From: Pseudomonas izuensis
GTDB lineage: Bacteria > Pseudomonadota > Gammaproteobacteria > Pseudomonadales > Pseudomonadaceae
Assembly: GCF_009861505.1 (NCBI RefSeq)
Contig: NZ_WTFT01000004.1
Span: 402,503-466,502 of the forward strand
Direction of reading: 5' to 3'
Length of the DNA: 64,000 bases
Below the pieces are notes generated by a model, which saw nothing but the letters and a program-made list of their open reading frames with translations, was not told where the DNA came from and did not search any database. Positions 18,301 through 35,774 of the stretch are shown piece by piece (position 1 is the first letter of the stretch; the number at the start of each line of letters is the position of its first letter). The position numbers and the translations under genes were made by a program.

Positions 18301-18310
18301 TACAAAGCAA

Positions 18311-19054: not shown

Positions 19055-20422
19055 ATGCGCGGGCCACTATTACGCAGCGGTAAGAGCGGGTCATTCACTG
19101 CCCTCGGCGAAACAGGTCAACCGGTCTACCGGGCAGCCCTGCAACTGCGCGAAGCCATTCGCCGCAAGAACCCCGAGTTGGTCGATCACCTGGCCATCCC
19201 TCAAAGCGATGAACTCGGCAACCAGATCGATTGGTACAGCGCCCTCGACGGCGATGTGATTCCGTGGAGCAGCGCGACCGAAGAAGAACGCGCTCCTGCC
19301 CGCCGTCAGCTTGAAGCGCTGAAGACTGCGCTCGAAGAATTGAGCCAGCGCTTCCTGGGTACAGACTCCGGCGAACAGCAGCAAGGCGACAAAGCCGTGT
19401 TCGGCAAGCTGCTCAAGCGCGTGATTCATTTCCCGGACGAAAACTTCGTCTACCTGGTGCAAGGCAAACCGGTGCTGACCTTCTGGGGTTTCGAGCATGC
19501 CGGTACCGGCAATAGCGATCCCCTGCACTGCCTTTATCAGGTCCCGCCCGCGTTCACGCTGCCCCCCGTGGCCGAAGCGCCTGTTGTTGCGCCCGTCGTG
19601 CCGGTGGTTGCTCGTCCTTGGTGGCGGCGCTGGTGGTGGCTGTTGTTGCTGCCGTTCCTGCTGCTGCTCTTGTGGCTGTTGCTCGGCCTGCGCGGTTGCG
19701 TCCCGCTTCCGTTGTTGGCCGTAGACCTGCTGCCCGAGGGCGTCGTACCGGTGGAGAAACACCTGGAAGAGCCACCACTGACCGGCAATGTCACGACGCT
19801 CAATGGCGTCCCCGTGACCGGCACCGTCGTAGGCGCCACCAACGGCACCGGCACCGCCGTGACCGGAACACAGGGTGTGGAAACGCCGGCCGTCGAGGAT
19901 AACGAGGCTGACGGTGCACCCGCCGACTTAACCAAAGACCCAACCAAAGACCCGGCAGCCGAAAACAAAACCGCACCACCTGAAAACAAAACCACGCCGC
20001 CGGATGTCACATCGCCCGAAGCAGAAAAACCCGCCGCCGCAAAACCCGGCCCTCCCCTGAGCATCCCGCCAGACGCCGCCGACGGTGCCGCCAAGTTTCT
20101 TGACGGTCAGTACAGCGCAGGCGCCGGGATACAGGACCGCCGGACTGGCAAACCGCTGCGTCTGGAATACCAGCTCAAGGACGGTAAGGGCCAAGTCACC
20201 GTACACCAGGCCGACGGCTCGAAATGTAGCGGGCCCGTAAGCGCTACTATGAAGGGTGGCAGCCTGGCCATCGACAGCCAAGGCCAGGCCGTTTGCGGCG
20301 ATGGCAGCACTTACGACATGCCCAAGGTCAACTGCCGCAAAGGGGCGACCACGGTCGCGGACTGCACTGGCGGCTACGGAAAAGAACAATTCCCCATGTC
20401 CATGCGGCAAGTGGCCGAATAA
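19055..20422 (+). CDS. srfA: SrfA-like single-pass membrane protein
   Basis: First gene of the srf operon, 455 residues, with TGGAGTTTGA before the ATG. Residues 1-188 are cytoplasmic in style (MRGPLLRSGKSGSFTALGE). A Trp/Arg-rich boundary leads to one long membrane helix (about 190-213). A Pro/Thr-rich linker (about 230-335) then joins a C-terminal domain (338-455) with four Cys (391, 414, 427, 437), as for disulfide bonds in the periplasm. I recognise it as SrfA-family by sequence style and its place before srfB-srfC. In Salmonella the srfABC genes are controlled by SsrB; the biochemical role is unknown. Confidence 0.8.
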   Translation: MRGPLLRSGKSGSFTALGETGQPVYRAALQLREAIRRKNPELVDHLAIPQSDELGNQIDWYSALDGDVIPWSSATEEERAPARRQLEALKTALEELSQRFLGTDSGEQQQGDKAVFGKLLKRVIHFPDENFVYLVQGKPVLTFWGFEHAGTGNSDPLHCLYQVPPAFTLPPVAEAPVVAPVVPVVARPWWRRWWWLLLLPFLLLLLWLLLGLRGCVPLPLLAVDLLPEGVVPVEKHLEEPPLTGNVTTLNGVPVTGTVVGATNGTGTAVTGTQGVETPAVEDNEADGAPADLTKDPTKDPAAENKTAPPENKTTPPDVTSPEAEKPAAAKPGPPLSIPPDAADGAAKFLDGQYSAGAGIQDRRTGKPLRLEYQLKDGKGQVTVHQADGSKCSGPVSATMKGGSLAIDSQGQAVCGDGSTYDMPKVNCRKGATTVADCTGGYGKEQFPMSMRQVAE

Positions 20423-20439
20423 AAACGGAATAACCCGAC

Positions 20440-23400
20440 ATGTTGCCTGAAGTCACTCAATTCGAAGACACCGTCACGCTGGTCAGCGACACCGGCATCC
20501 AGTTCATGGATTTCGCCCTGCGCCTGGATCCCCGCAAGGAGCCGGCGGGCGAGTTCGCGCCGATGATCAGCGGGCTGATCTGCCGCTTGGCGTACAACGA
20601 AGAGAAAGACTTCTTTTTCTACGAGCCCGAACCGGAAAAAGTCGAAAAAGCCAAGCCTGCGTTCAGCGTCGACATGAAAAGCAGCCTCGATTTGCTCGAC
20701 GGTATCTGGCTGCCGACCCCGTTTTTCCGCTTCATGCCGCCGCATCGCTTCGACGAAGGTCCGACCAACTGGTCGCGCATGCGCCTGGTGAAACTGGCGA
20801 CTCCCGACATCGACGGCAACACCCACCGCCTGACGATGGCGTTCGACAGCCGTGTGATGCCCAAGCGTGACGGCACTGCCTATCTGGCGCCAAACGAAGA
20901 AGACATCAGCTCCGGCGTGTCTTTCAAACTGGCGACCAAGGCTAGCGAAACCCGTTGGTTCCTGGCACAGCCGTGGGTCAACGAGTGGTTGCTGGAAGTG
21001 TTCAATGAGGGCAATGCCCACCGTTCGCGCGCAGAGTTGGACATCGATATCCGTGCCAACCATCACCTGGCGCACTACCTCAACTTGCTCAGCCTGTTGA
21101 GCAAACCGTCAGCCGCCCAGCAATCGAAAGCCCGTGCGAAAGTTGAAATCCCCGAGCTGAAAGTAGTCGCCAACGACAGCAATGGCCTGATCAAACCGAT
21201 TCCGGTGGATCTGGTGCTGGACGTCGGCAATTCGCGCACCTGCGGCATTCTGATCGAAAACCACGGTCAGGCCGGCTCCGGGCTGAAGCAGAACTACGTG
21301 CTGGAACTGCGCGACCTGATCACCCCCGAACACACCTACAACCTGCCGTTCGAAAGTCGCGTGGAATTCGCCCAGGCGTATTTCGGCAAGGACCACTGCT
21401 CGGTCAAGAGCGGTCGTCACGATGCGTTCCAGTGGGCGACGATTGCCCGCGTCGGCAATGAGGCCAGTCGTCTGGCCAGCCGTCGTCGCGGTACTGAAGG
21501 CTCCACTGGTCTGTCCAGCCCGAAACGTTATCTTTGGGACGAAAATGCCTATGGTCACGGCTGGCGTTTCAACTGCTCGTACATCAAGACTGATAACGAG
21601 CCGTATGCCACCGCCGCGCCGTTCTCGCACCTGATCAACGAAACCGGCGAGGCGCTTTACAGCCTCGAAGAAGATGATCGTCTGCCAGTGTTCATGCCGC
21701 GTTATTCACGCAGCTCGCTAATGACCTTCATGCTCGCCGAAGTACTGGCCCAGGCGCTGTCGCAAATCAACAGCCCGGCCCAGCGCTCGCGCCAGGGTCA
21801 CACCCGCGTGCCGCGCCAGCTCAACAGTATTACCCTGACCGTGCCGCCGGGCATGCCGCAGGCCGAGCGCAGCATCCTCAACGAACGCATGCTCCAAGCC
21901 ATCGGCCTGGTGTGGAAAAGCCTCGGCTGGCATGCCGGCGAGGAAGATCCACATCAGGATCAGGCCGTCAGCCCGCGCACGCCGATCCCGAGCATCCGCG
22001 TGGAATGGGACGAAGCGTCCTGCGGCCAGTTGGTGTACCTGTACACCGAGGTCAACGAGAACTTCGCCGGTCACCCGGAAGAGTTTTTTGACACCATCGC
22101 CCGGCCGGACAAAGCCGACCGCCAACGCATCACCCTCGCAACCATCGACATCGGCGGTGGCACCACCGACCTGGTGATCACCGACTATCGCCTCGACCGC
22201 GCGGGCAATACCGGCAGCGGCAGCAACGTGCACATCGTGCCCGAGCAGCGTTTTCGCGATGGTTTCAAAGTGGCCGGCGACGACATCCTGCTGGACGTGA
22301 TTCAGGACTTCATCCTGCCGAGTTTCGAAAAAGCCTTGCAGAACGCCGGCGTGAAGGCCCCGAACTCATTGATGTCACGGCTGTGTGGCGATGAATCGGT
22401 CAGTGCCCAGGACATGATCCTGCGTCAGCAACTGAACCTCCAGGTGTTTGCCCCACTGGGCCTGGCGCTGCTCAAGGCGTACGAGCATTACGATCCGCAG
22501 GTCCCGCAACAAGTCATCCCGCAAAGCTACCGCCAATTGCTCGGTGACAACGCAATCAGCCAGACCGTACTCGACTACGTCAATGTCGCCGTGCGTCGCG
22601 ATGTCGGCGCACAGAGCGGTTTCGACCTGTATGCCGCGCCGATCAGCTTCGACCTGCAAAAGCTCCACGCCGCGTTCCTCAACGACCAGATCAACATCAC
22701 CAAGATCCTGGGTGCGCTGTGTGAAGTGGTCGCGCATTACCCGTGTGATGTCTTGCTGCTGACCGGCCGCCCTTCGCGTCTGCCCGGTATCCAGGCGTTC
22801 ATTCGCAAGGTGTTGCCACTGCCACCTGGACGCATTCTGGCGCTGCAAAACTACCGCACCGGCGGCTGGTATCCGTTTCACAGGAACGGCCGGATCGACG
22901 ACCCGAAAAGCACCGCCTCTGTGGGCGCCATGCTTTGCCTGTTGTGCGCCAACCACAGCGTGCCAAACTTTTACTTCCGGGCATCGGCGCTCAAGCCGTA
23001 TTCGACGGTCAAGCACATCGGCGTCATCGACCTGAACAACGTGATCAAGGATGCCGACGTGCTGTACCGCGACATCCAGTCCGAAGACTACAAAATCAAG
23101 CTACCGGAAATTGGCGTTGGCGACGCCGCCGACACGCCACAGCTGGAAATGCGCGGCGATCTGCGCCTCGGTTTCCGCCAGTTGGCCACTGAACGCTGGG
23201 CCGCTTCGCCGTTGTATACCTTGCGGTTCACCAAGACGGGTCGGGAGAAGTTTTCCCGGGCAATCGGTGAAAACGGTAGCGCGCCGCTGCTCAAGGTGCG
23301 GTTCGAGGTCAAACCGGCGGACAAATACACGCGCAAGCAGGATCTGGTCAGCGACCGCCTCTCGGTTCGCGACATCGAATCCAACAGTAACAACGTCAAC

Positions 23401-23505
23401 TTCAACCCGCGCAGCGACCTCGAGCTGGAACTCAACACCATGCTCGACGCCGGCCTGAGCGAGACCAAGTACTGGCTCGACAGTGGAAGTGTGAAACGCA
23501 AATGA
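20440..23505 (+). CDS. srfB: SrfB-like actin/Hsp70-fold ATPase
   Basis: Product of 1021 residues, 17 bases after srfA. It has the two phosphate-binding motifs of the actin/Hsp70/sugar-kinase ATPase fold: LDVGNSRTCGI (Asp about 261) and ATIDIGGGTTDLVITDY (Asp about 570). An adenosine-type motif LLLTGRPSRLPG follows at about 772-783. The size and the long insertions are typical of the virulence factor SrfB family. No signal peptide or membrane helix is seen, so it is predicted cytoplasmic. It overlaps srfC by ATGA, suggesting equal synthesis and a complex. Xenorhabdus SrfABC has been described as a toxin, but the motifs point to an NTP-driven machine. Confidence 0.85.
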   Translation: MLPEVTQFEDTVTLVSDTGIQFMDFALRLDPRKEPAGEFAPMISGLICRLAYNEEKDFFFYEPEPEKVEKAKPAFSVDMKSSLDLLDGIWLPTPFFRFMPPHRFDEGPTNWSRMRLVKLATPDIDGNTHRLTMAFDSRVMPKRDGTAYLAPNEEDISSGVSFKLATKASETRWFLAQPWVNEWLLEVFNEGNAHRSRAELDIDIRANHHLAHYLNLLSLLSKPSAAQQSKARAKVEIPELKVVANDSNGLIKPIPVDLVLDVGNSRTCGILIENHGQAGSGLKQNYVLELRDLITPEHTYNLPFESRVEFAQAYFGKDHCSVKSGRHDAFQWATIARVGNEASRLASRRRGTEGSTGLSSPKRYLWDENAYGHGWRFNCSYIKTDNEPYATAAPFSHLINETGEALYSLEEDDRLPVFMPRYSRSSLMTFMLAEVLAQALSQINSPAQRSRQGHTRVPRQLNSITLTVPPGMPQAERSILNERMLQAIGLVWKSLGWHAGEEDPHQDQAVSPRTPIPSIRVEWDEASCGQLVYLYTEVNENFAGHPEEFFDTIARPDKADRQRITLATIDIGGGTTDLVITDYRLDRAGNTGSGSNVHIVPEQRFRDGFKVAGDDILLDVIQDFILPSFEKALQNAGVKAPNSLMSRLCGDESVSAQDMILRQQLNLQVFAPLGLALLKAYEHYDPQVPQQVIPQSYRQLLGDNAISQTVLDYVNVAVRRDVGAQSGFDLYAAPISFDLQKLHAAFLNDQINITKILGALCEVVAHYPCDVLLLTGRPSRLPGIQAFIRKVLPLPPGRILALQNYRTGGWYPFHRNGRIDDPKSTASVGAMLCLLCANHSVPNFYFRASALKPYSTVKHIGVIDLNNVIKDADVLYRDIQSEDYKIKLPEIGVGDAADTPQLEMRGDLRLGFRQLATERWAASPLYTLRFTKTGREKFSRAIGENGSAPLLKVRFEVKPADKYTRKQDLVSDRLSVRDIESNSNNVNFNPRSDLELELNTMLDAGLSETKYWLDSGSVKRK

Positions 23506-26216
23506 ATGACCTGACCCCCGATCAAACTCAGCTCTCTGCCAGTTGGGCCGCTGTTTATGAAGGCGCCGGTCAGGCGCTGGACTGGATTGGCCAGACACGC
23601 GTCAATGCACCGCGCCTGGACAGCGAAGCCGACAACCTGAACATCCGCCTGCACCGTGCCCGCAACCTGGCCAAAAGCCTCGGTCGCGTGGCCTGCACGC
23701 CGATGACCATTGGCTTTTTCGGCTTGTCCCAGGCAGGTAAGTCCTACCTGATTTCGGCCCTCGCCGCCGGTCAGAACGGCAAGCTGGAAACCGAGTTCGG
23801 CGACCAGCGCCTGGACTTCATCAAGCACATCAACCCGGTGGGTGGTGGCAAGGAAGCCACTGGCCTGGTAACGCGCTTCAGCCGTCGGGCGAAGGAAAGT
23901 CAGGACAAGGACTTCCCGGTAGAACTCACGCTGTTCAAGGAAATCGAGCTGGCGAAGATTCTCGCCAACGCCTGGTTCAAGGATTTCGACCTTGAACGGA
24001 TTTCCTACGAGATCGACGAAGAGCGCATCCAGCGCGTGCTCAAACCGTTCGAAGGCCGCGAAACCGGACCGCTGCAAACGGGGGTCAACGCCGACGATCT
24101 GGTGTCGCTGTGGGATTACCTGCGCGACAACTTCCGCAACTCGGTGAAGAAGCTTGAGCACCTGTACTGGCCCAAAGCATTGCAATTGGCGCCACGCCTG
24201 AATTACCAGGAACGGGCCGAGCTGTTTTCGATTCTCTGGGGTGAGCAAAGCGAGTTGACGCGCGTGTACCAGCAACTGGCCGGCGCGCTGCACAAGCTGG
24301 GTCTGCCCGAGACCGTGTTCGCACCGTTGAAGGCCTTGGTGAGTTTCGACAACGACACCTACAGCCAGCGCGACAGCATCATGAACGTCGACATCCTCGA
24401 ACGCTTCGGTAGCCCGCTGGACTTGCCGATCGATGTTCGACCGCTGGTGGGCGATCGCCTGCAAAACAGCCAGGCCATTGCGGTCGCGCAACTGGCGGCA
24501 CTGACCGCCGAAATGACCTTCCGCCTGATCGAAGCGCCGGTAGATGACATCGTCAATCAGGTCGACCTGCTGGATTTCCCCGGTTATCGCGGGCGCCAGA
24601 AACTGCACGAGATCGCCGATTCCAACGACCCGCAGTCCACCGCCAAGGACAACTCCGTTTCCCAGCTGATCCTGCGCGGCAAGGTCGCCTACCTGTTCGA
24701 ACGCTACACCGACAACCAGGAAATGAACGCACTGGTGGTCTGCACAAGCTCGACCAAGCAAAGCGACGTCAACGATGTGGGCCCGGTGCTGACCCGCTGG
24801 ATCGAAAAAACCCAGGGCGCCGACTCGGCCGCTCGCAGCAAGCGCGATACCGGCCTGATCTGGGCGCTGACCATGCTTGACCTGCGCATTACCAACTCCC
24901 TGAGCCTGACACCTGATCAGTACGACGAGAGCTGGAACGGCATGGTCAAGTTGACCATGCTGGAGCGTTTCGGCAGCCTGAGCTGGATGAACGACTGGGC
25001 CGGCACGCCGTTCCAGAACACCTATCTGGTGCGCAAACCGCGTATGGACGCGGCGTTCATCGGACAAGACGCGACCGGTGCGGAAACCGGTCTCAATGCC
25101 CTCTATCAGGAGCGTGTCAGCGCGCTGGGCATCAGCTTCGCCAGCAACGCCCTGGTGTGCAAACACATCAAGGACCCGGCCAACGCCTGGACAGAAATGC
25201 TGCGCAACGATGACGGTGGCATCAGCCACTTCAGCGGCAGTTTCAAAGGCGTGGCCAATATCGAATTCAAATTGCAGCGTATCCGCGAGCAATTGGGCGA
25301 ATGCCTCGAAGGCCTGACCACTCACGGCCTGAGCACCTGGTACCACGCTGACGACGACAGCGCCGCAGCCGCCAAGAAAGCCAAGGCGCAAATGATTTTG
25401 ACAGGCCTGGGCCGTCGCCCGGCGGTACTTGGCGAATTGATCGATCAACTCGACATGCCGAGCGAAGAGGTGCGCGACCTGTACCTCAGCGGGGTGTACG
25501 AAACTGATGACGAGCCCGCCGTAACCGACGAACCGGTCGCCCCGACGCCAAGCCAGAGCCTATACGGCAACGACGCCGGTTTTGACTTCGATTTCGGTGA
25601 CGACCTGAGCCCCGACAGCACGCCGGCGAGTAACAAAATCGGCACCCCGGCGCCCGAACTGCAAAGCAATGAGCATCGTTTCGCCAAAGCAGCCTTCAAG
25701 GCCTGGATCGCCCACCTGCGTGAACTGACCACCCGGCAAAGCCTGCTCAACCTGCTGGGGCTGGAAAAGGCCTTGCTGGAAGCGGTAGTCGATGAACTGA
25801 TCACCGCCGGCTATCGCCAGGACTTGCCGGGGCAACTGAGCCGCGCCGTCCTCAAGCGAGCACAAAGTGGCGCGCGGCGCGATCAACTGGTCGAACGCCA
25901 GGTACTGGAAGTGCAGCGCGTGCTGCGCGATTTCGTGTCCTGGTTCGGCTACCTCCAGAAACCGGTGAACGAGCGCCCGAACAGCCGCACCGGAGCCAAG
26001 GCGCCTTTGTTTTCGTTCTACACCGACATTGGTCCGGGACAAGTGCCCGAACTGCCGGCGCAACCGTCGAATCAGGCGCAACGGTACCTGGGCGACTGGC
26101 TCTCGGGCCTGGCCTACATCACGCAGGACAATGCCGGCCATGGTGCCGGACGTGAAATCACCCCTGAACAGAACGAACGGCTGGGCCAAGTGCTCACAGC
26201 CTTTGCAGCGAGATAA
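23502..26216 (+). CDS. srfC: SrfC-like large P-loop GTPase
   Basis: Product of 904 residues; the ATGA overlap with srfB sets the start. A P-loop GFFGLSQAGKSYLIS (Lys 80) follows a short helical N-terminus. A DxxG switch motif lies in VDLLDFPGYRG (Asp about 358), so it is a TRAFAC-class GTPase with an insertion of about 270 residues between the first two motifs. The C-terminal half is helical, as in dynamin-like or scaffold GTPases; an acidic low-complexity linker (about 665-710) precedes the last 190 residues. It matches the virulence factor SrfC family. No membrane helix is obvious. It probably works with SrfB and the membrane proteins of this operon. Confidence 0.83.
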   Translation: MNDLTPDQTQLSASWAAVYEGAGQALDWIGQTRVNAPRLDSEADNLNIRLHRARNLAKSLGRVACTPMTIGFFGLSQAGKSYLISALAAGQNGKLETEFGDQRLDFIKHINPVGGGKEATGLVTRFSRRAKESQDKDFPVELTLFKEIELAKILANAWFKDFDLERISYEIDEERIQRVLKPFEGRETGPLQTGVNADDLVSLWDYLRDNFRNSVKKLEHLYWPKALQLAPRLNYQERAELFSILWGEQSELTRVYQQLAGALHKLGLPETVFAPLKALVSFDNDTYSQRDSIMNVDILERFGSPLDLPIDVRPLVGDRLQNSQAIAVAQLAALTAEMTFRLIEAPVDDIVNQVDLLDFPGYRGRQKLHEIADSNDPQSTAKDNSVSQLILRGKVAYLFERYTDNQEMNALVVCTSSTKQSDVNDVGPVLTRWIEKTQGADSAARSKRDTGLIWALTMLDLRITNSLSLTPDQYDESWNGMVKLTMLERFGSLSWMNDWAGTPFQNTYLVRKPRMDAAFIGQDATGAETGLNALYQERVSALGISFASNALVCKHIKDPANAWTEMLRNDDGGISHFSGSFKGVANIEFKLQRIREQLGECLEGLTTHGLSTWYHADDDSAAAAKKAKAQMILTGLGRRPAVLGELIDQLDMPSEEVRDLYLSGVYETDDEPAVTDEPVAPTPSQSLYGNDAGFDFDFGDDLSPDSTPASNKIGTPAPELQSNEHRFAKAAFKAWIAHLRELTTRQSLLNLLGLEKALLEAVVDELITAGYRQDLPGQLSRAVLKRAQSGARRDQLVERQVLEVQRVLRDFVSWFGYLQKPVNERPNSRTGAKAPLFSFYTDIGPGQVPELPAQPSNQAQRYLGDWLSGLAYITQDNAGHGAGREITPEQNERLGQVLTAFAAR

Positions 26217-26219
26217 GCA

Positions 26220-27248
26220 ATGCCAATTCGTGTCGACCTGCTCGCGTTAGAGCCCAATGTGCCTGGCCAGGCCCGCCTCACTGTGAAGAAATGGCAGGGT
26301 AGCGAGGAACAGCTGGAGTTTTCCATTCAGCGCAACCAGGACGGTTTTTACCTCCAGGACCACAAGGCGTGGAGCAACAATCCATTCTGGTTCAAGGTCT
26401 CGCGTTTCAACCTCACCGCCAACGGCGAAGCGTTGGAAACGCAGGTCGGCCCGAGCGTGATCGACCCCCTGCTGGAAGGCAGTGCCAACTCGCAATTCCA
26501 AATCGAACTGCGCGAACAGAGCCTGGGCCACACTGACAAAGGCGTGGTTCGACCAGGCATCGGCTTGCTGCCGTCCACGGCCGGCGGCCAGACACGCTCG
26601 ACTTACGGCGGTGCCGAACTGACGGCGCCAAGCGAACCTGCACCGGAGGTTCCGGAGATCCCGGATCTACCTGAATTGACCCTGTCCACCATCGAGCCAG
26701 AAGTGGAATTGGAGTCGGTACTCACCGAGCCTGCCTACACACCGCCTCCGGCCCCGGTGAAGAAAAGCAACAAAGGCCTGATCGGACTATTGATTGTGGT
26801 GCTGCTGCTGGCGGCAGGCGCAGGATTCTGGTTCTACAAACGCCCCGCCGCGCCTGCCTCGGTGGCCACAGCCACTGCCGCTGCACCTGCCGGCGCCGAC
26901 GCTCAAGCCTGTACCCTCGACAGCATGAACAGCCTGCCGGAGTTGACCTTCGTCCAGACCTGCATCAAAGCGGCACCCGACAGTGCCAAGTTGCTGGAAA
27001 TCATTAACCAGGCCAAGGCTGGCAAACACTGCGGCGTTGCCCAGCGCCTGTACGCCAACCGTGCCCAGGCCGGTGACGCGCTGATCGCCAACGCCTATGC
27101 CCGTGAATACGACCCTAAATACCTGAAGGCCAGCGAGTGCTTCCCGGCCGCGGACAACGCCACCGCCGCCTACTGGTATGAAACCATCCTCACCCAGGAC
27201 CCGAACAACGCCGAAGCCAAGCAGCGCTTCGAGGAGTTGCAGAAGTGA
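26220..27248 (+). CDS. Srf-associated single-pass membrane protein, unknown
   Basis: I do not recognise a family for this 342-residue protein. The N-terminal 100 residues look like a cytoplasmic beta-rich domain (MPIRVDLLALEPNVPGQARL). A Pro/Glu-rich linker follows (about 130-183), then one membrane helix (about 186-206). The C-terminal periplasmic part (225-342) is helical, TPR/Sel1-like, with four Cys (231, 248, 271, 307). The topology copies that of SrfA and of the VWA protein at 34038. It lies 3 bases after srfC and overlaps the next gene. It may link the cytoplasmic NTPases to periplasmic partners; this is inference from topology. Confidence 0.7.
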   Translation: MPIRVDLLALEPNVPGQARLTVKKWQGSEEQLEFSIQRNQDGFYLQDHKAWSNNPFWFKVSRFNLTANGEALETQVGPSVIDPLLEGSANSQFQIELREQSLGHTDKGVVRPGIGLLPSTAGGQTRSTYGGAELTAPSEPAPEVPEIPDLPELTLSTIEPEVELESVLTEPAYTPPPAPVKKSNKGLIGLLIVVLLLAAGAGFWFYKRPAAPASVATATAAAPAGADAQACTLDSMNSLPELTFVQTCIKAAPDSAKLLEIINQAKAGKHCGVAQRLYANRAQAGDALIANAYAREYDPKYLKASECFPAADNATAAYWYETILTQDPNNAEAKQRFEELQK

Positions 27249-29239
27249 TGCGTTCGCCCCTGAGTCGATTCCTGCTGAGCGGTGCCGCCTTGCTCGCGCT
27301 ATGCATCAGCCCGCTGTCCCAAGCCGATGACAAACCGCTGATTCAGGCTGGTAAAAAAACCCTGTTCCAGCGCGTGCTGACCACGCCCGGCTGCAAAATA
27401 AGCCCGACGGCGGGTGGTGCTGAAGGTGACGCACAACCGGTCTTCACCCGCTTCTATGTGTACGAACGTGCGCAAGCGAAGAACGCCGAGTGGCTGAAAG
27501 TCGGCCCCGACAGCTACGGCAAAACCATTGGTTGGCTGCCTGCCAGCTGTACCACCGACTGGAAGATGCAACTGACGCTGGCCTTCACCAACCCGGCCAA
27601 CCGCGACCGGCTGCTGTTCTTCAAGGACCGCGCCACCGTCGAAGGCATCCTTGATGCACCGGACCCGGTCAGCAAAGTCGCGCCGCTGCGGGCTACGCTG
27701 AAAAAGGGACAGCAGGCACCGGGCGTACTGGCTGAAGAACCGGAATACTTCGTCGACCTGCAAAAGCAGTTCTACCTGCTGCCGGTGCTCAGTGGCGAAG
27801 AAGTCATGACCGAAAGCGGTTTCCGCACGCGCCTGCTCAACGTAGCCTCCGTCAGCAAGCCGGATGACAAGAACGCCAAGGGCGGTGCTGCAAACAACGC
27901 TGCCGGCAGCAAGGAGGCCGAAGAGAAAAAGGCCAACCAGCTGAAGGAATTCAGTGCGGCCGTGGTATTTGTCATCGACTCGACGATTTCGATGGACCCC
28001 TACATCGACCGCACCCGCGAGGCGATCCGCAAGGTATATCAGAAGATCGAAGCGCAGAATCTTGGCAAGCAGGTCAAGTTCGGCCTGGTGGCTTTCCGCT
28101 CCAACACCCAGGCGGTACCGGGGCTGGAATACACCACCAAGATGTACGCCGACCCGACTCAGGTGAAAGACAGCGCCGACTTTTTCGCCAAGATCGCTGA
28201 CCTCAAACAGGCCACCGTGTCGAGCAGCAGCTTCGATGAAGACTCGTTTGCCGGCGTCATGGAGAGCATCGACAAGGTCGACTGGAGCCAGTTCGGCGCA
28301 CGCTACGTGGTGCTGATCACCGATGCGGGCGCCATCGAAGGCGACGACAAGCTGTCGAAGACCGGTTTGAGCGCCGCGCAGGTGCGTATCGAAGCCGCCA
28401 ACCCGGGCGTGGCGATTTACACCCTGCACCTGAAAACCCCGGCCGGGGCCAAGGACCACGCCAAGGCCGAGGCGCAGTACCAGGACCTGTCGACCTACCC
28501 GGGCACCAACACCTCGCTGTACTACCCGGTGAACGCTGGCGACGTGCAGGAATTCGGTCGAAAGGTCGACGCACTGGCCGGGGCGATCACTACACAGGTC
28601 AAAGCCGCCTATATGGGAGAAGACGCCATCGGCAGTGCGGCGAACGCCAAACAGGACCCGGCCGAGAAAAAGATGCTCGAAGACGCGGCGCTGATCGGCC
28701 ACGCCATGCAACTCGCCTATCTCGGCGAGAAGACCAACAGCAAAGCCCCGCCAGTATTCAAGGCATGGATCACCGACCGCGACCTGATCAAGCAGAACAT
28801 CCCGACCACCGACGTGCGGGTGCTGCTGACCAAGTCACAGCTCAGCGACTTGAGCGACGTGATGAAGCAGATTCTCGATGCTGCCAACGAAGGCCTGATT
28901 TCGCCGACGGAAATGTTCGATCGCCTGCGCTCGGTGGCGGCTACCATGGGCGCCGATCCCAATCAGCTCAAACAGAATAGCAACGCCAAACTGGCGGACA
29001 TGGGCGTCCTCGGTGAATACCTCGAAGACCTGCCCTATCAGAGTGAAGTGCTGAACCTGGATGAAGAGACCTGGAAGAGCTGGGATGGTCTGGCACAAGA
29101 GAAATTCATCCGCACGCTGAACACCAAACTGCGGCATTACCAGCGTTACAACGCCGATGTAGACCGTTGGGTAGCTTTAGCCAAAGACAGCGATGCGCGG
29201 GACAACGTCTACCCCGTGCCACTGGAAATGATGCCTTAA
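27248..29239 (+). CDS. Periplasmic VWA-domain protein (PpkA C-terminal-like)
   Basis: Product of 663 residues from the ATG at 27248; a GTG one codon earlier is also possible. The signal peptide is RFLLSGAALLALCISPLSQA. The VWA domain has a MIDAS-type motif FVIDSTISMDPYIDRTREAI (Asp about 244) in the style of the periplasmic VWA part of the T6SS kinase PpkA. No kinase domain is present. An SH3-like N-terminal segment (about 30-110) precedes it and a helical C-terminus follows. It occupies the position that ppkA has before tagT-tagS-tagR-tagQ. A sensor or ligand of the FGE-like protein is plausible. Confidence 0.75.
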   Translation: MRSPLSRFLLSGAALLALCISPLSQADDKPLIQAGKKTLFQRVLTTPGCKISPTAGGAEGDAQPVFTRFYVYERAQAKNAEWLKVGPDSYGKTIGWLPASCTTDWKMQLTLAFTNPANRDRLLFFKDRATVEGILDAPDPVSKVAPLRATLKKGQQAPGVLAEEPEYFVDLQKQFYLLPVLSGEEVMTESGFRTRLLNVASVSKPDDKNAKGGAANNAAGSKEAEEKKANQLKEFSAAVVFVIDSTISMDPYIDRTREAIRKVYQKIEAQNLGKQVKFGLVAFRSNTQAVPGLEYTTKMYADPTQVKDSADFFAKIADLKQATVSSSSFDEDSFAGVMESIDKVDWSQFGARYVVLITDAGAIEGDDKLSKTGLSAAQVRIEAANPGVAIYTLHLKTPAGAKDHAKAEAQYQDLSTYPGTNTSLYYPVNAGDVQEFGRKVDALAGAITTQVKAAYMGEDAIGSAANAKQDPAEKKMLEDAALIGHAMQLAYLGEKTNSKAPPVFKAWITDRDLIKQNIPTTDVRVLLTKSQLSDLSDVMKQILDAANEGLISPTEMFDRLRSVAATMGADPNQLKQNSNAKLADMGVLGEYLEDLPYQSEVLNLDEETWKSWDGLAQEKFIRTLNTKLRHYQRYNADVDRWVALAKDSDARDNVYPVPLEMMP

Positions 29240-29249
29240 AGAGACGCAG

Positions 29250-29951
29250 ATGCTCGATATCAAGAACCTGCTGGTGCGCCGTGGTGAAGGCGCACACGCC
29301 CATAACGTGCGGCTGCCGCACTTGCAGGTCGGCGCCGGGGAAATCCTCGCCATCACCGGCGAGAGCGGCAGCGGCAAAAGCACGTTGCTCGAAGCCATCG
29401 GCCTGTTGCTCGCGCCGGTGGAACTCGAGCGCTTTCGGCTGGGCCCGACGCACGCTCAGGATATCGCCCAACTGCTGGCCACTGACGACCAGCCAGCGCT
29501 CGCAGCGGTGCGTTCACGGCACTTGGGATTCATTTTGCAGAGCGGCGGCTTGCTGCCGTTCCTGAGTGTGCGTGACAACATCAGCCTGCCGCGCCGTTTG
29601 CTCGGGATGCCTGCAAAAAGCGATCACATCGACCACGCCGTTGACGTATTGCGCCTGCAAGGGTTGCTGGATAAACAACCAAAGGCCTTGTCGATCGGCG
29701 AACGCCAGCGCGTTGCTTGCGTTCGGGCAATTGCCCATGAACCGCTGCTGCTGTTGGCCGACGAGCCGACCGCCGCGCTCGACCCTCACGGTGCCCGGCG
29801 TTTGTTCGAGTTGCTCCTGAGCCTGGTGTCGAGCATGGGCCTGAGTGCGCTCGTTGTGTCCCATGACTGGGTTTTGTTGAAGGATTTCGGCTTGCCGCGA
29901 CTCGGCGCTATCAGCCATCAGGGGGAGACTCTGTTTGAACCGATGGACTGA
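29250..29951 (+). CDS. ABC transporter ATPase, LolD/TagT-like
   Basis: The 233-residue ATPase has Walker A GESGSGKST, signature LSIGERQRVA (in place of LSGGQ) and Walker B LLLLADEPTAALD, the layout of LolD/MacB/TagT-type ATPases. It overlaps the next gene, an FtsX-like permease, by 17 bases. In P. aeruginosa TagT and TagS form an inner-membrane complex that signals to PpkA; the same order here (VWA, ATPase, permease, FGE-like) suggests an equivalent module. It could alternatively be a lipoprotein-releasing ATPase. Confidence 0.82.
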   Translation: MLDIKNLLVRRGEGAHAHNVRLPHLQVGAGEILAITGESGSGKSTLLEAIGLLLAPVELERFRLGPTHAQDIAQLLATDDQPALAAVRSRHLGFILQSGGLLPFLSVRDNISLPRRLLGMPAKSDHIDHAVDVLRLQGLLDKQPKALSIGERQRVACVRAIAHEPLLLLADEPTAALDPHGARRLFELLLSLVSSMGLSALVVSHDWVLLKDFGLPRLGAISHQGETLFEPMD

Positions 29952-31158
29952 TCGCTTGCGCCTGCTGGGTTCACTGGCGCTGCGAGACCTCTGGCACGAC
30001 CGCAAGGTCTCGCTGTGCATCGCCGCCTCCCTGGTGGCGGTGATCGCGCCGTTGTTGTTGCTGTTCGGGCTCAAACACGGGGTGGTCAGCCAACTGCAGG
30101 ACGAACTGCTGCGCGACCCGCGCAACCTTGAAGTGAAAATGCTCAGCAACGGCAACTACGACACGGCCTGGATCGAGCGTTTGCGCCAGCGCCCCGAGAC
30201 CGGTTTTGCCCTCGGCCAGACCCGCTCGCTCAATACCCAGGCTGACCTGCTGATTGGCATGCAACGGTTTGTCGAAGGTGCGGAAATCATCGCCACCGAA
30301 TCGGGCGACCCACAACTGAACCTGTCGTCACTCAACCCCGTCGGCAATCAAGTGATCCTCAGCGCCAGCGCAGCGCAACGCTTGCAGGCCAAGGCCGGCG
30401 ACAGCGTGCAGCTGCGGGCCTTGCGACGTCTGGAAGGTGTCAATGAACGCGGCGAGATGACGCTGACGGTACTGGCCGTGCTCGACGGTGCCCGCTTCGG
30501 TCGAGCTGCCGGGTTTGTCGCCCCGCCGCTGCTGCTGGATCTGGAGCGCTTTCGCGACGGTTATCAGGTCAGTGAGTTCGGTGTGATCACCGGCAAGCCT
30601 CCGGGTAATCTACAACCGCTGTACGCCCGCGCCCGCGTGTATGCACGCGACATCGATCAGGTCGCGCCGCTTGAACACTGGCTCAACGAACAACACATCG
30701 AAACGTCGAGCCGACTGGCCGACATCGACAACGTCAAAGCCATCAACCACGTGCTGGGGCTGATCTTCGGTGTGATCGCCATGGCGGCGCTGATCGGCTG
30801 CGTGGCGTCGATGGTCGGCGCGTTCCTGGCCAACATTGATCGCAAACGCAAAAGCCTGGCGGTCTTGCGTCTGCTGGGTTTCAAACGCAGGGCCGTAGGC
30901 GGTTTCGTGGTCCTGCAAGCGCTATTGCTGAGCCTGGCTGGCTACGTTGGCGGGCTGGGGTTTTATGCCGTGGGCAGTCATTTGTTCAACTACCTGCTCG
31001 GCAGCAGCCAGGCCACCGGCACCTTCGTTTGCCACATCACTGTTTGGCATGGCCTGGCCGCCCTGCTCCTGACCTTTTTGGTCGCTGCACTGGTGGCCGC
31101 GATCGGCGCCTTGCGAGCCATCAACATCCAACCTGCGGAGAGTCTGCGTGAGCTATAA
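29935..31158 (+). CDS. FtsX/MacB-like permease, TagS-like
   Basis: Product of 407 residues with a TTG start and GGGGGAG about 10 bases upstream. Topology is that of type VII ABC permeases: one helix near the N-terminus (about residues 26-45), a large periplasmic domain (about 50-275), then three helices in the last 130 residues. It is paired with the ATPase at 29250. These transporters usually couple ATP use to conformational work across the periplasm rather than to transport. It overlaps the FGE-like gene by 11 bases. Confidence 0.82.
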   Translation: MNRWTDRLRLLGSLALRDLWHDRKVSLCIAASLVAVIAPLLLLFGLKHGVVSQLQDELLRDPRNLEVKMLSNGNYDTAWIERLRQRPETGFALGQTRSLNTQADLLIGMQRFVEGAEIIATESGDPQLNLSSLNPVGNQVILSASAAQRLQAKAGDSVQLRALRRLEGVNERGEMTLTVLAVLDGARFGRAAGFVAPPLLLDLERFRDGYQVSEFGVITGKPPGNLQPLYARARVYARDIDQVAPLEHWLNEQHIETSSRLADIDNVKAINHVLGLIFGVIAMAALIGCVASMVGAFLANIDRKRKSLAVLRLLGFKRRAVGGFVVLQALLLSLAGYVGGLGFYAVGSHLFNYLLGSSQATGTFVCHITVWHGLAALLLTFLVAALVAAIGALRAINIQPAESLREL

Positions 31159-32692
31159 ACGTTTTGGCTTGCTGTTACCCCTGAGCCTCGGCTACTTGCT
31201 CGACGCCTCGGCGGCGGGCTGGGAAGAGAAGTATTACAACCCGATGCCCGAGGCTGGCGACGTCGTGCTGCCGATGCCCTGCGAAGGCTCGATGGTGTTC
31301 CGCAAGGTGTTTATTCCGGTCGCCGGTCCGCTGGATGACTACCCAATCAACATCGGTCAGGACGGCGCGGAATACGGCTATGTCGAACAGACCCGTCCAA
31401 CCTTTATCGCCGGCAGTTTCACCGGGGCCAAGAACGACAAATCCCGCTACTACCTGATGGCCAAGTACGAGATGAGTCAACTGCAATACGCCGCACTGAC
31501 CGAAGCAACCTGCCCCACCGCCACCACCAATATGCGCTTGCCGCAAACGGCGGTGAGCTGGGTGCAAGCCATCGAAGCCGCCGACAAGTACAACCTGTGG
31601 CTGCGCAAAAACGCCACCGGCAAGCTGCCCAAGGAAGACGGGGCGCAAGGCTTCCTGCGCCTGCCGACCGAAGTCGAGTGGGAGTTCGCCGCGCGCGGCG
31701 GGCTGGAAGTCGGTGCCGCTGAATTCCGCGACACGCACTACCCGATGCCAGAAGGCATCAACGCCTACGAGTGGTTCGCCGGGGCGCAATCGTCCAACGG
31801 CAAAGTGCAATTGACTGGTCTGCAAAAGCCCAATCCGCTGGGTCTGCATGACATGCTCGGTAACGTCGACGAAATGATGTTCGAGCCGTTTCGCCTGAAC
31901 AAACTCGACCGCCAGCACGGTCAGGCCGGCGGTTACGTCGTCCGTGGCGGCAACTACCTGACCGCGCAGGCCGACCTGCATACGGCATTGCGTAAGGAGG
32001 AGCCGTATTACAACGCCGAAGGCCAAGTAAAAAACAAAACCACCGGCCTGCGACTGGTGCTGGTCTCCCCGACCCTCACCTCTCGCGAACGGGTCGCCAG
32101 CATCGAAAGCAGCTGGAAGAAACTCGGCACCGGCAGCAAGGAAACCGAATCCGCCGACAAAGGCACCGTACAATCCCTGAACAGCCTCGCTTCAGGCGTC
32201 GAAGACAAAGCGCTCAAGGAAAAACTCCAGGCCCTGGAGAACCAACTGCGCGCCAGTAACCAGCAGCAGGAAGAAACCCGCGACCAGGCGATCCGCGCCA
32301 GCCTCAACCTGGGTGCGTTCCTGTGCACCAAGATGCTCGACGACGGCCAGTACGTGGACTTCCTGCAAAAGAACTACAAGCTTAACTGCGAAAGCGCAGA
32401 CAAAGATGCCAGTTGCGACATGCGTAAAGGCAAGCTCGACGAGCAAAAGGATCGCCTGCACAAACTCAGCCGTTACTACGCCAGCAGCCTGGTGGAATCG
32501 GCTACCTTGTACGGCCAGCCACTGCTTGAAACGCAAGTCCCGGTGATGGAAGAAATCATCACCCGCAACAAACAGCTGCAAGACCTCAAACCTTACTTGC
32601 GCACCCACTGGGCCAATCAGAAGGCGTTCCTGCAAAAGCAGAAAATCGACACTGAAGCCTGGCTGACCAGCTGCAAAACCGTCACTCAATAA
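31148..32692 (+). CDS. Periplasmic FGE-sulfatase-fold protein, TagR-like, non-catalytic
   Basis: Product of 514 residues, GTG start overlapping the permease stop. It has a short signal peptide (about 22 residues), then a formylglycine-generating-enzyme fold (about 80-310) with LPTEVEWEFAARGG, GLHDMLGNVDEM and YVVRGGNYLTAQADLHTALR. Catalytic FGE has cysteines right after the RGG motif; here there are none, so no oxidation of sulfatase cysteine is expected. TagR of P. aeruginosa is a similar periplasmic fold that acts on PpkA. A coiled-coil (about 340-380) and four Cys in the C-terminal part (about 396-512) follow. Probable periplasmic ligand in the relay. Confidence 0.78.
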   Translation: MSYKRFGLLLPLSLGYLLDASAAGWEEKYYNPMPEAGDVVLPMPCEGSMVFRKVFIPVAGPLDDYPINIGQDGAEYGYVEQTRPTFIAGSFTGAKNDKSRYYLMAKYEMSQLQYAALTEATCPTATTNMRLPQTAVSWVQAIEAADKYNLWLRKNATGKLPKEDGAQGFLRLPTEVEWEFAARGGLEVGAAEFRDTHYPMPEGINAYEWFAGAQSSNGKVQLTGLQKPNPLGLHDMLGNVDEMMFEPFRLNKLDRQHGQAGGYVVRGGNYLTAQADLHTALRKEEPYYNAEGQVKNKTTGLRLVLVSPTLTSRERVASIESSWKKLGTGSKETESADKGTVQSLNSLASGVEDKALKEKLQALENQLRASNQQQEETRDQAIRASLNLGAFLCTKMLDDGQYVDFLQKNYKLNCESADKDASCDMRKGKLDEQKDRLHKLSRYYASSLVESATLYGQPLLETQVPVMEEIITRNKQLQDLKPYLRTHWANQKAFLQKQKIDTEAWLTSCKTVTQ

Positions 32693-32726
32693 CAATGCGT
32701 CAACACCGTTACGTAGGAGTTTCACC

Positions 32727-33470
32727 ATGTCGCGCAGCCTTTGGACTCGCTTCAAGCTACAGATCGCTTTCGTAGTCGCCAGCAGCCTGCTAATGAGCGG
32801 TTGCGCCAACACTGGCAGCTCCATGCTGGGCGAAGGCGAAAGCGAAGGCGGCGGTGCCGACCCGCGCCTGACCCAGGGCAATGACGCAGAGTTCTTCAGC
32901 AAGTCCGGTTACCAGGCCTGCGCCGTCGGCGCCGGCGTCGGCATCCTCGCTTGCGCACTGTCTAACAGCAACAACAAAACCGTGTGCGTCATCGCCGCCG
33001 GTATTACCGCGTGTGGCGTGGCCATGGGCGCGAACTATTACCTGGATCAACGTCGCGCCGAATACGCCGACACCACCACCCGCCTGGCGAAGATGAACAG
33101 CGACGTCGAACAAGACACGCAGAACGTGATCGCCCGGACTGCGACCGCTCAGCAAGTGATCAATGATGACCATGCGCAAATTGCCCAGATCAAAAAGGAC
33201 ATTGCCAACAAGAAAGTCGACAGGAGCAGGGCTCAGGCGCAAATCGCCGGGATCGATTCGGACATCGCGCGCCTGCGTAAAGACCTGGCCAACATGCGTA
33301 TCAAAGTCACCGAGTACAGCAAAGTGGCAGACGCCGAGCGTTCACAAGGCTCCAGCGCCGAGATCAGGCAAGTGGAGATGAACATTCAAAGAATGAACCA
33401 GAAAGTCGCCAGCCTGCAGAAGGAAGTCGACGCTCTGTACAGCCAACGCTCCGCAATCACCCTGGGTTAA
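32727..33470 (+). CDS. Srf-associated lipoprotein with coiled coil (TagQ position)
   Basis: Product of 247 residues with a lipobox LMSGC (lipidated Cys 26) and TAGGAGTTTCACC before the ATG. After it comes a Gly/Ala/Cys-rich hydrophobic segment (about 55-95), then a long coiled coil (about 105-245) rich in Gln, Lys and Asp. The family is unrecognised. It follows the FGE-like gene where tagQ, an outer-membrane lipoprotein that holds TagR, follows tagR in P. aeruginosa. Residues after the lipid Cys (A-N) do not show an Asp sorting signal, so outer-membrane placement is likely. Confidence 0.7.
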   Translation: MSRSLWTRFKLQIAFVVASSLLMSGCANTGSSMLGEGESEGGGADPRLTQGNDAEFFSKSGYQACAVGAGVGILACALSNSNNKTVCVIAAGITACGVAMGANYYLDQRRAEYADTTTRLAKMNSDVEQDTQNVIARTATAQQVINDDHAQIAQIKKDIANKKVDRSRAQAQIAGIDSDIARLRKDLANMRIKVTEYSKVADAERSQGSSAEIRQVEMNIQRMNQKVASLQKEVDALYSQRSAITLG

Positions 33471-33474
33471 GCCT

Positions 33475-33981
33475 ATGACGCCAAGACAACTGATGCTCAT
33501 CACTGCCGTCCTGGCCCTGAGCGGTTGCGCGAGCCAGCCCGGCGAATGCGATGCGACCAATCGCGACAGCAGCATGCTGACCAAGATGAACTGCGACTAC
33601 TCCGGTGGTTACAGCGATCAGGTCAAGCAGAAGGAACTGGCACTGAGCGAGTCCCGGCAGCAAAACGCAATGTTCCGCCAGGTGTACGAGAACATTCAGG
33701 CCCAGCAGCTCAGCACCAAGACCGATCTGGCCAGCCAGCAGAAAGCCCAGGCGGCGTTGAATCAGTCGCTGGCGCAACTGCTGACCTCGCTCAAGGCCCG
33801 GCGTGGCAATGAAGCCCAGGTGCAGAAGCAGATTGCCGACCTCGAGAAGCAGCTCAAGGCTTCGCAAGCGGCACCAACGACCAAATCAACACCCGCGACG
33901 CTGGCGGCCAAGCAGCAAGAGCTGAAAGCATTGCAGAAGAAGGTCAACCAGCTGCAATTCAGCCTCGGCTACGAAGAGTAA
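33475..33981 (+). CDS. Srf-associated small coiled-coil lipoprotein
   Basis: Product of 168 residues, 4 bases after the previous stop. Its lipobox LALSGC places the lipidated Cys at position 18. Cys 25 and Cys 40 lie close together in the mature N-terminus. The rest (about 50-165) is a long Gln/Lys-rich coiled coil with a short low-complexity break (TKSTPATLAA). The family is unrecognised. It is probably a partner of the lipoprotein at 32727, with which it shares the coiled-coil build. Position +2 is Ala, so outer-membrane localisation is expected. Confidence 0.68.
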   Translation: MTPRQLMLITAVLALSGCASQPGECDATNRDSSMLTKMNCDYSGGYSDQVKQKELALSESRQQNAMFRQVYENIQAQQLSTKTDLASQQKAQAALNQSLAQLLTSLKARRGNEAQVQKQIADLEKQLKASQAAPTTKSTPATLAAKQQELKALQKKVNQLQFSLGYEE

Positions 33982-34037
33982 CTTTTCACCCTGCAAGCAT
34001 CCCGATGGATGCCTGCACTTTTTCAGGAATCGTCGTC

Positions 34038-35528
34038 ATGCAGCGGGTCATCAGGGATGCGCAAGCCACATCGGAGGGGATGAGTGCACTGCAAGCCAAA
34101 GTCGCCCTCATCCAGAAACACTTTCCGCCGACCGTCGCCAGCCTGTTTGCCATCCCGCGGATGGGCAGCGGCGACGTGATGGAGTGGTGGACCGAACTGG
34201 GTGGCCAACCCACGCCTTATGCCGATCTCAATGAGGACGCGCGACGACGTTTGCTGGAAACCTATGAAGTGCGTCAGACGTCCCTCGGACAGCTGGCGGA
34301 TGAACTGCAAAAACGCGGTCAATCGACAGAAGCGGATGACCTGCGCAGCCTGCTTGGCACGCCTGAGCTGGACAAACTCTACAGCCTCAACGGTGAGCCT
34401 TTGGTGGTGCGCTGGAACCAGCGTCCGCCCAAACCGATCGTGCCGCCGGTGGTGCCGGTCGCGCCCGTGCTGCCGCCGTCGCGTCGAGGCTGGTGGATCG
34501 CGGCGGCCTTGCTCGCGCTGCTGTTGCTGCTCCTGGCGCTCTGGCTCTGGTGGTTCCTGCACCGTGAGCCGGTTGTCGTGGCGCCGCCTGTAGCGCCTGT
34601 GCCGCCAGTGGTTGCGCCGGTTGAGAAACCGGTCGAGCCTGCCCCCGCGCCTGTCGTGGAGCCGGAACCGAAACCTGTTCCGCCACCTGAATCCACGCCA
34701 GAACCGGTACCGGAACCCAAGCCGGTCCCGCCACCAAAACCGGCCCCGGCACCGGCACCTGAACCCAAGCCGGCTCCGCCACCCAAACCGGTTCCACCGC
34801 CAAAACCGGTCGTGGCTGCCCCGCCACCAGCGCCACCACCCGCCCCGACGCTGGACAACTTCGCATGCCGCAAAACAGCGCCGAAGTCAGAGGTCCCGCA
34901 GTTCGTGGTGGTGCTCGACACTTCGGGCTCGATGGATTTGAACATCAAGGCAGTGAGAGCCGACGAGGACTGGTTCTACGGTCCTGACATCAACAAGCTG
35001 CTGGACCCGAACCGCACCATGCGGCTTACCGCCAGACCCAGCCGCATGGACGTCGCCAAGGAGTCGCTGGCCGGAATGATCAACGGGCTGGACCCGAAGA
35101 TTGATACACGCCTGATCACCTTTGCCGGCTGCGAAAGAACACCCGACCAGGGTTTGTTCAAGTTCGGCGACCGCCCGCGGCTGATCAACGGGATTCGAGG
35201 CCTGGTTCCCGACGAAGGCACACCGCTGGCCGACAGCCTGGCCCACGCGGCGAGCACGGTCGACGGGCGCAATAACGATGCGGTTATCGTGATGTTCGTC
35301 GACGGCGAAGACGGTTGCGGGCAGGACGTTTGCGCGGTATCCCGTCGAATCGCCAGGGAACAACCGCGCCTGCGGGTCAACGTGGTGAAAATCGGTGCTG
35401 GCGGCCCGTCACGCTGTATCGCTGAAAACACCGGAGGTCGGGTTTACAACAGCACCAATGCGGCTGAGTTGGGCAACCTGTTGAAACAGGCGAGCAAGGA
35501 AGTATCCAGCAGTACCAAGTGCGACTAG
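34038..35528 (+). CDS. Membrane-anchored VWA protein with Pro-rich stalk
   Basis: Last gene of the operon, 496 residues from the ATG at 34038 (AGGAA upstream); an ATG 11 codons earlier is less convincing. A cytoplasmic helical N-terminus (about 1-145) is followed by a membrane helix (about 152-174). Next comes a stalk of about 100 residues, nearly all Pro, Val, Glu, Lys and Ala. The periplasmic VWA domain has a complete MIDAS motif VLDTSGSMD (Asp about 294), T-P-L-A-D-S and FVDGEDGC. Several Cys pairs suggest disulfides. The stalk is long enough to reach toward the outer membrane or peptidoglycan. Function unknown. Confidence 0.78.
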   Translation: MQRVIRDAQATSEGMSALQAKVALIQKHFPPTVASLFAIPRMGSGDVMEWWTELGGQPTPYADLNEDARRRLLETYEVRQTSLGQLADELQKRGQSTEADDLRSLLGTPELDKLYSLNGEPLVVRWNQRPPKPIVPPVVPVAPVLPPSRRGWWIAAALLALLLLLLALWLWWFLHREPVVVAPPVAPVPPVVAPVEKPVEPAPAPVVEPEPKPVPPPESTPEPVPEPKPVPPPKPAPAPAPEPKPAPPPKPVPPPKPVVAAPPPAPPPAPTLDNFACRKTAPKSEVPQFVVVLDTSGSMDLNIKAVRADEDWFYGPDINKLLDPNRTMRLTARPSRMDVAKESLAGMINGLDPKIDTRLITFAGCERTPDQGLFKFGDRPRLINGIRGLVPDEGTPLADSLAHAASTVDGRNNDAVIVMFVDGEDGCGQDVCAVSRRIAREQPRLRVNVVKIGAGGPSRCIAENTGGRVYNSTNAAELGNLLKQASKEVSSSTKCD

Positions 35529-35678: not shown

Positions 35679-35728
35679 TGCCCTCCAAAGGAGGGGTCGT
35701 GGGTTCGAATCCCGTCTGGGCACCATAC
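35679..35728 (+). pseudogene. Degenerate tRNA-Arg 3' half (candidate attachment site)
   Basis: The 50 bases from TTGCCCTCC to GCACCATA repeat the 3' half of tRNA-Arg(CCG) in direct orientation, including the identical T-arm block GGTCGTGGGTTCGAATCCCG. There are two small deletions and a few changes relative to 18252-18302. No matching 5' half or acceptor strand lies upstream, so no functional tRNA can fold. It is best explained as the right attachment site of an element integrated at the tRNA, and is followed by a strong terminator. Confidence 0.75.
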
Positions 35729-35740
35729 GCAAGAACGAGA

Positions 35741-35774
35741 AAGCCCCAGACCGCAAGGTCTGGGGCTTTTTTTT
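35741..35774 (+). terminator. Bidirectional-looking terminator after tRNA remnant
   Basis: Strong stem AGCCCCAGACC / GGTCTGGGGCT with loop GCAA and a run of eight T on the plus strand; purines on the other side also give a short minus-strand tail. It sits 15 bases before the end of the convergent chemoreceptor gene. Confidence 0.88.

Follow-up and report, generated by a model that had tools for sequence, protein, structure and literature searches.

Within a 64,000-nucleotide stretch of the Pseudomonas izuensis genome (assembly GCF_009861505.1, contig NZ_WTFT01000004.1, positions 402,503 to 466,502; hereafter the window, whose own coordinates are used below), 11 genes on the + strand at 19055-35528 encode SrfA, SrfB and SrfC together with members of the PpkA, TagT, TagS and TagR lineages, which belong to a sensor relay of type VI secretion systems (T6SSs). 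This sensor homology is firm by sequence comparison, which excludes chance as the source of the four matches. We consider it likely, on balance, that the cluster senses outer-membrane damage or contact and switches on SrfC (predicted to be dynamin-like) and SrfB (predicted to be actin/Hsp70-like) via inner-membrane proteins. Gene linkage, co-variation and analogy are what suggest that the relay senses damage here and drives SrfB and SrfC. In the analogous P. aeruginosa system, outer-membrane damage by an atomic force microscopy tip or by polymyxin nonapeptide fires the H1-T6SS via TagQRST-PpkA, and PpkA is thought to work by dimerising (excerpts of PMC11881912).

The genes are ordered srfA, srfB, srfC, TM342, VWA, ABC ATPase, FtsX-type permease, FGE-fold protein, two lipoproteins and SrfA-VWA. 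Gaps between them range from -17 to +34 bases, and because of this tight spacing we infer a single operon. The first-pass annotation, made from the letters of the sequence, had described six consecutive genes at 26220-33981 in one operon with srfABC. There are in fact seven, the first of which encodes an unlisted membrane protein (TM342, 26220-27248). The srfABC genes do lie in the same tight run, but the unit is larger than proposed, reaching 11 genes with TM342 and SrfA-VWA. The genes that had been named all exist as + strand open reading frames. The four relay genes are as follows.

27245-29239, + strand: VWA protein with a signal-like segment at residues 6-24; it is homologous to PpkA's periplasmic half, lacks the kinase and has the motif D[ST][ST]xSM in common with PpkA
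29250-29951, + strand: TagT-type ABC ATPase (Pfam ABC ATPase, 1.5e-22)
29935-31158, + strand: TagS-type FtsX-like permease (Pfam FtsX, 5.1e-12)
31148-32692, + strand: TagR-type FGE-fold protein with a TagR-like C-terminal extension (Pfam FGE domain, 1.4e-30)

As references for the T6SS relay we used 14 same-genus stretches around TagQ matches, 13 with TagQ over the family cut-off and one (L053) below it. In 12 of the 14, all four window proteins matched PpkA, TagT, TagS and TagR; in L049 and L053 there was no match to the four at 1e-3. The VWA protein is 35.6-39.4% identical to the C-terminal part of PpkA (best E 2.5e-145), and hhalign gave 3e-150 over 641 columns, bearing out its suggested kinship with PpkA; its Pfam VWA match is weak (2.3e-4, below the family cut-off). 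The alignment runs past the PpkA transmembrane (TM) segment to the final PpkA residue in 10 of 10 cases, and homology starts some 35-80 residues beyond that segment in the two PpkAs checked. The ATPase is 42-49% identical to TagT (hhalign 1.2e-76), the permease 35-37% identical to TagS over about 400 amino acids (hhalign 1e-84) and the FGE-fold protein 29-33% identical to TagR over about 465-541 amino acids (hhalign 1.5e-79, 523 columns). The proposed likeness of the proteins at 29250, 29935 and 31148 to TagT, TagS and TagR is thus upheld by identity and by hhalign, and for the ATPase also by phylogeny. The FGE-fold protein falls within the TagR lineage, TagR being its only match in a T6SS genome (G007). 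It has no cysteine in residues 255-310, which we take to be the region of the catalytic Cys pair in the FGE enzyme; this fits a non-catalytic protein.

When a T6SS genome was searched with the ATPase, TagT was the best match at 184.8 bits, and the next of 87 matches scored 95.9. A tree of 49 ATPases unites 14 Srf-linked rows, six TagT rows and the ATPase of locus L190 in one group (100/98) that stands apart from 28 further ABC ATPases, the next-best ones in two Pseudomonas genomes. Inside it, 13 Srf-type ATPases (97/92) and the TagTs (96/93) form separate branches; those of L190 and of the Srf-linked locus L193 are long branches joined to each other (86/77), and their placement is unsure. We find it hardly credible that these genes encode an ordinary LolCDE/MacB-type lipoprotein exporter with its neighbours there by chance. 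LolD is indeed the best NCBIfam match of the ATPase (1.8e-35), but at 122.5 bits against a cut-off of 307.75; the tree groups the ATPase with TagT rather than with the other ABC ATPases compared, and the gene set is conserved between bacterial families.

Two loci from this tree deserve separate mention. L190 (8520-17684, genome G132) offers a third context, with VWA, TagT, TagS, TagR, Gly-zipper lipoprotein and Lp2-like genes and no SrfABC within the 19 kb available; an S41 peptidase gene follows, and an alpha-2-macroglobulin-like gene lies nearby on the opposite strand. L193, a divergent relay-srf locus, contains three 249-residue genes (8139-8888, 14341-15090 and 16382-17131) whose first 50 residues are near-identical and which are perhaps insertion-sequence transposases.

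No counterpart of the PpkA kinase half was found in the cluster. A profile built from the N-terminal (kinase) part of PpkA and run on the T6SS and Srf loci produced 12 matches in the T6SS loci, and in the Srf loci only three weak ones (18.8-21.1 bits), all to TM342 proteins; the TM342 of the window has no kinase family in Pfam. As had been read from the sequence, no kinase, phosphatase (PppA) or FHA family is among the Pfam families listed for the 11 proteins. Two protein kinases are encoded elsewhere in the P. izuensis genome, on contigs C1 and C28. The accompanying claim that all Tss genes are absent holds for the three that were searched, TssB, TssC and TssK, which gave no match across the whole genome (estimated to be 100% complete).

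These absences bear on the proposal that the relay is a T6SS accessory, serving T6SS clusters elsewhere in the genome and surviving in P. izuensis as a leftover. Its parts are homologous to the T6SS relay, and TssK is found in 13 of the 20 relay-positive genomes. Yet the other seven, P. izuensis included, are without TssK, the cluster is without a kinase, and a leftover is at odds with 11 reading frames that are all open. Among 119 genus genomes, moreover, SrfB occurs in 13 and TagQ over its cut-off in 37, with no overlap (P 0.006, a value that assumes independent genomes and ignores their relatedness). We regard this explanation as very unlikely. The PpkA-like VWA protein is single-copy in all 20 relay-positive genomes.

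The other proteins of the cluster, apart from two lipoproteins, are the following.

19055-20422, + strand: SrfA (NCBIfam NF040486, 437.6 bits), with an N-domain, hydrophobic segments at 192-210 and 215-233 and a C-domain, a topology suggested by hydropathy
20440-23505, + strand: SrfB, predicted actin/Hsp70-like ATPase (PF07520, 1355.8 bits)
23502-26216, + strand: SrfC, predicted dynamin-like GTPase (PF10139, 1027.2 bits), with a P-loop at residues 74-81 and DFPGYRG at 358-364
26220-27248, + strand: TM342, a bitopic protein with an N-terminal beta-sandwich (about 1-120), a TM helix (185-206) and a C-terminal helical repeat (233-341)
34005-35528, + strand: SrfA-VWA, with a SrfA-like N-domain (NF040486, 5.1e-10), a hydrophobic segment at 160-178, a proline-rich linker and a VWA domain (PF13519, VWA_2, 1.8e-7)

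The DxGN and GGGTTD residues of SrfB, which we take to be actin/Hsp70 motifs, are invariant in 16 aligned rows; the nearest named SrfB, from Pseudomonas jessenii, is 99% identical. SrfC has the G1 and G3 motifs of a G-domain, and a fold search with its predicted model found resemblance to bacterial dynamin-like proteins and mitofusins, at 8-16% identity and with low TM-scores. On this basis we predict that SrfC is a dynamin-like GTPase. TM342, whose predicted model has a pLDDT of 81.8 and a pTM of 0.45, is a candidate coupler. Two SrfA-VWA-like genes occur in some loci: L036 (270-1535 and 1548-2975), L037 (277-1671 and 1554-2936) and L145.

A quite different role for these proteins would be that of a secreted toxin complex, with the relay triggering its export or release. 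SrfABC of Xenorhabdus stockiae is described as cytotoxic (excerpts of PMC6950479), and the excerpted text of a 2013 study of oral Deltaproteobacteria suggests that PpkA could trigger export of SrfC (PMC3608642). That suggestion relied on the PpkA kinase, which the cluster lacks, and searches of the genome for TssB, TssC and TssK found nothing. A simple hydropathy scan detected no TM or signal-like segment in SrfC, a sole one at 756-774 in SrfB and internal ones in SrfA, and SrfC models as dynamin-like. We consider a toxin complex unlikely.

Twelve other loci of the genus have the identical 11 genes in identical order. Named loci were the best 80 of at least 587 relatives, and so are biased to close kin; 76 of the 80 reach 8.5 kb beyond srfB, and 63 of these 76 have all four relay genes, in each case (63/63) with TM342. 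The remaining 13 comprise eight short-SrfC enterobacterial loci, L146 (two of the four relay genes), L147 (broken genes), L151, L178 and L179. The linkage survives rearrangement, as loci of Aeromonas, Erwinia, Pantoea, Siccibacter and Citrobacter have the genes for the lipoprotein and for SrfA-VWA on the upstream side of srfA. One result goes partly against the first-pass proposal: a phylum-wide, even draw of 398 genomes (SrfB match in 22, over the cut-off in 21) included relay VWA relatives in 8 of the 21 SrfB-positive genomes, and none was found in 13. Twelve of these 13 have short-SrfC loci and belong to one enterobacterial clade; the other is G255.

A 71-row SrfB tree (FastTree, midpoint-rooted for drawing only) places 17 relay-less enterobacterial rows in one clade (100), nested among relay-positive loci. 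Its neighbour is an Enterobacterales locus, followed by Proteus, Silvania and Xenorhabdus loci, all with the relay, and the relay-less loci of Thiocapsa and G255 stand separately. In this midpoint-rooted tree the relay-linked loci look ancestral, and one enterobacterial clade appears to have lost the relay. Across 96 SrfC proteins, residues 465-550 of the window protein correspond to 6-13 residues in all 20 members of the relay-less clade and to 83-92 in the 76 others. This block falls inside the GTPase domain, because a structural alignment with EngB covers residues 66-590 of the SrfC model. Of the 20 relay-less proteins, 8 retain an intact P-loop and 7 retain DxPG, compared with 76 of 76 others for each motif. 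The SrfC of this clade therefore looks to have lost about 75 residues of its GTPase domain and often its nucleotide-binding motifs too. Our reading is that loss of the relay relaxed selection on the GTPase.

Several observations weigh against this reading or against a general coupling of relay and SrfABC. The relay VWA relative was missing from most SrfB-positive genomes of the phylum draw, as given above; the SrfC proteins of G255 (L090) and Thiocapsa L179 keep their motifs with no relay found nearby; and enterobacterial relay loss and SrfC reduction together make up a single event. More broadly, SrfABC without a relay nearby is seen in Thiocapsa L178 and L179 and in G255 (L192), with long-type SrfC motifs persisting in L179 and G255; the L179 SrfC is in two pieces.

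The same relay could also serve another purpose, in which sensing of a surface or of contact supports swarming or the growth of biofilms and not the repair of damage. A Salmonella srfC mutant swarmed poorly and swam normally; swarming alone was affected by deletion of the operon or by a polar mutation in srfB (excerpts of PMC4219756). The Salmonella locus may, however, belong to the relay-less clade, and outer-membrane damage is what is reported to set off the homologous relay (excerpts of PMC11881912). We give this purpose a small chance, comparable to that of a toxin complex.

Two lipoprotein genes follow the TagR relative.

32727-33470, + strand: TagQ-related lipoprotein with the lipobox LMSGC, a hydrophobic segment and a coiled-coil-like remainder
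33475-33981, + strand: second small lipoprotein (Lp2) with the lipobox ALSGC, which the 12 other loci of the genus also have

The first had been proposed to correspond to TagQ. Some results speak for this: hhalign aligned it to TagQ at 9.3e-14, and the TagQ family NF041250 matches 25 of 28 of its relatives at E<=0.01 (best 1.4e-14). The protein itself scores 2.6e-5 and 23.7 bits on that family against a cut-off of 300, and found no blastp match at 1e-3 in the genus T6SS stretches. Several findings speak against TagQ identity: of the same 28 relatives, 27-28 are also matched by coiled-coil families (E down to 2.7e-7), small proteins of 160-182 residues elsewhere in the genus score similarly on the TagQ family, and one such protein is the best TagQ-family match of the P. 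izuensis genome. We describe the lipoprotein as TagQ-related and weakly TagQ-like, an identity that is not proven.

Returning to the damage- or contact-sensing relay that we favour, a possible course of events is as follows. The TagQ-like lipoprotein and the TagR-like protein would meet the signal in the periplasm and act on the VWA protein, which is likely to be free and to stand in for the periplasmic half of PpkA, with TagS and TagT providing an ATP-driven conformational change. Because this PpkA half stands alone, the signal must leave the periplasm by another route, for which the bitopic TM342, SrfA and SrfA-VWA are candidates; as the cluster encodes no kinase, we propose that they use binding, not phosphorylation, to pass it over the inner membrane. 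Since the NTPases SrfC and SrfB are encoded beside these candidates, we read the relay as triggering a dynamin-like and actin-like pair. The two would then come together at the inner membrane, likely to remodel or reseal it close to the site of damage. A bolder version is a tentative proposal to which we give considerably less weight: a kinase-free, T6SS-free form of envelope repair in which a TagQRST-type sensor of outer-membrane damage directly commands SrfC and SrfB, these two reseal or reshape the inner membrane where it is wounded, and the 'virulence factors' encoded by enterobacterial srfABC are decayed, sensor-less descendants.

The flanks of the cluster point to a mobile history.

18224-18300, + strand: tRNA-Arg (ccg), identified with ARAGORN; its 3' half forms the left-hand member of the cluster-flanking repeat
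18252-18303, + strand: left flanking direct repeat, attL-like, 52 columns at 92.3% identity to 35679-35728 (E 6e-14)
35679-35728, + strand: right flanking direct repeat, a copy of the tRNA-Arg 3' half and not a full tRNA
35737-35772, + strand: terminator-like hairpin after the right repeat, with a 16-pair stem and a T run (a consensus match only)

Since copies of the tRNA-Arg 3' half bracket the entire cluster as a direct repeat, a pattern typical of an island at a tRNA, the cluster is probably genomic-island cargo. This tRNA-Arg or its half was present in 3 of 33 related loci tested (L122, L126 and L128) and was not found in the other 30 within the stretch available for each. A search for a sigma-70-like promoter at the cluster found none. 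A small open reading frame on the - strand (18379-18729) has a DUF4432-like start, and its tail looks by eye like a tyrosine recombinase; it is probably a decayed junction. Among plasmids, 142 records have a SrfB match, 114 of them from Klebsiella and all below 60% identity. The sole plasmid record whose gene order was inspected, Klebsiella pneumoniae NZ_CP029739.1 (L227, 9992-26847), has a relay-linked srf cluster.

Linkage of srfABC to tagQRST and ppkA is not new, because it was already published in 2013 and again touched upon in 2019. In the excerpted text of the former (PMC3608642), host-associated Deltaproteobacteria have srfABC with tagQ and ppkA, and tagRST in most genomes, with T6SS machinery in only one, and the function of SrfABC is called unclear; that of the latter (PMC6950479) places genes tied to post-translational control of the T6SS near srfABC in Xenorhabdus. 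What is new here is the kinase-less PpkA relative, the dynamin-like model of SrfC, the seemingly ancestral position of relay-linked loci in the midpoint-rooted SrfB tree, and the loss of the relay together with SrfC reduction in one enterobacterial clade. Among the papers listed by searches of the open-licence full-text literature we found no report of a kinase-less PpkA relative or of SrfC as a dynamin, and one may exist. SrfABC is annotated as a 'virulence factor', and its link to a relay with a known trigger opens a direct experimental route. If our interpretation is correct, the relay would be a portable sensor able to feed different outputs (the T6SS, SrfABC and perhaps a third in L190), and bacteria would possess a damage-gated dynamin. 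What has been concluded about function from relay-less enterobacterial SrfABC may then concern reduced forms.

Set against known systems, SrfC resembles the bacterial dynamin-like proteins BDLP and SynDLP and the mitofusins in its predicted fold and G1/G3 motifs, but the likeness comes from a predicted model with low identity and TM-scores, and SrfC differs from them in being linked to SrfB and a transenvelope relay. The enterobacterial srfABC loci of Yersinia, Pectobacterium, Brenneria and Lonsdalea encode homologues of SrfA, SrfB and SrfC in the same order, whereas no relay genes were found adjacent and their SrfC, of 710-831 residues, lacks the block and often the P-loop or DxPG. The Deltaproteobacterial neighbourhood appears, by gene names only, to have the same gene set, but its ppkA is discussed as a kinase (excerpts of PMC3608642), unlike the kinase-less PpkA relative in the Srf loci here. 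Closest of all is the H1-T6SS TagQRST-PpkA relay: TagT, TagS, TagR and the PpkA periplasmic half are homologous, the gene order is that of the genus T6SS loci, and a TagQ-like lipoprotein gene follows the TagR relative. It differs in that the P. izuensis cluster has no kinase and no listed FHA or phosphatase family, in a genome where TssB, TssC and TssK were not found, and is linked to SrfABC, TM342 and SrfA-VWA.

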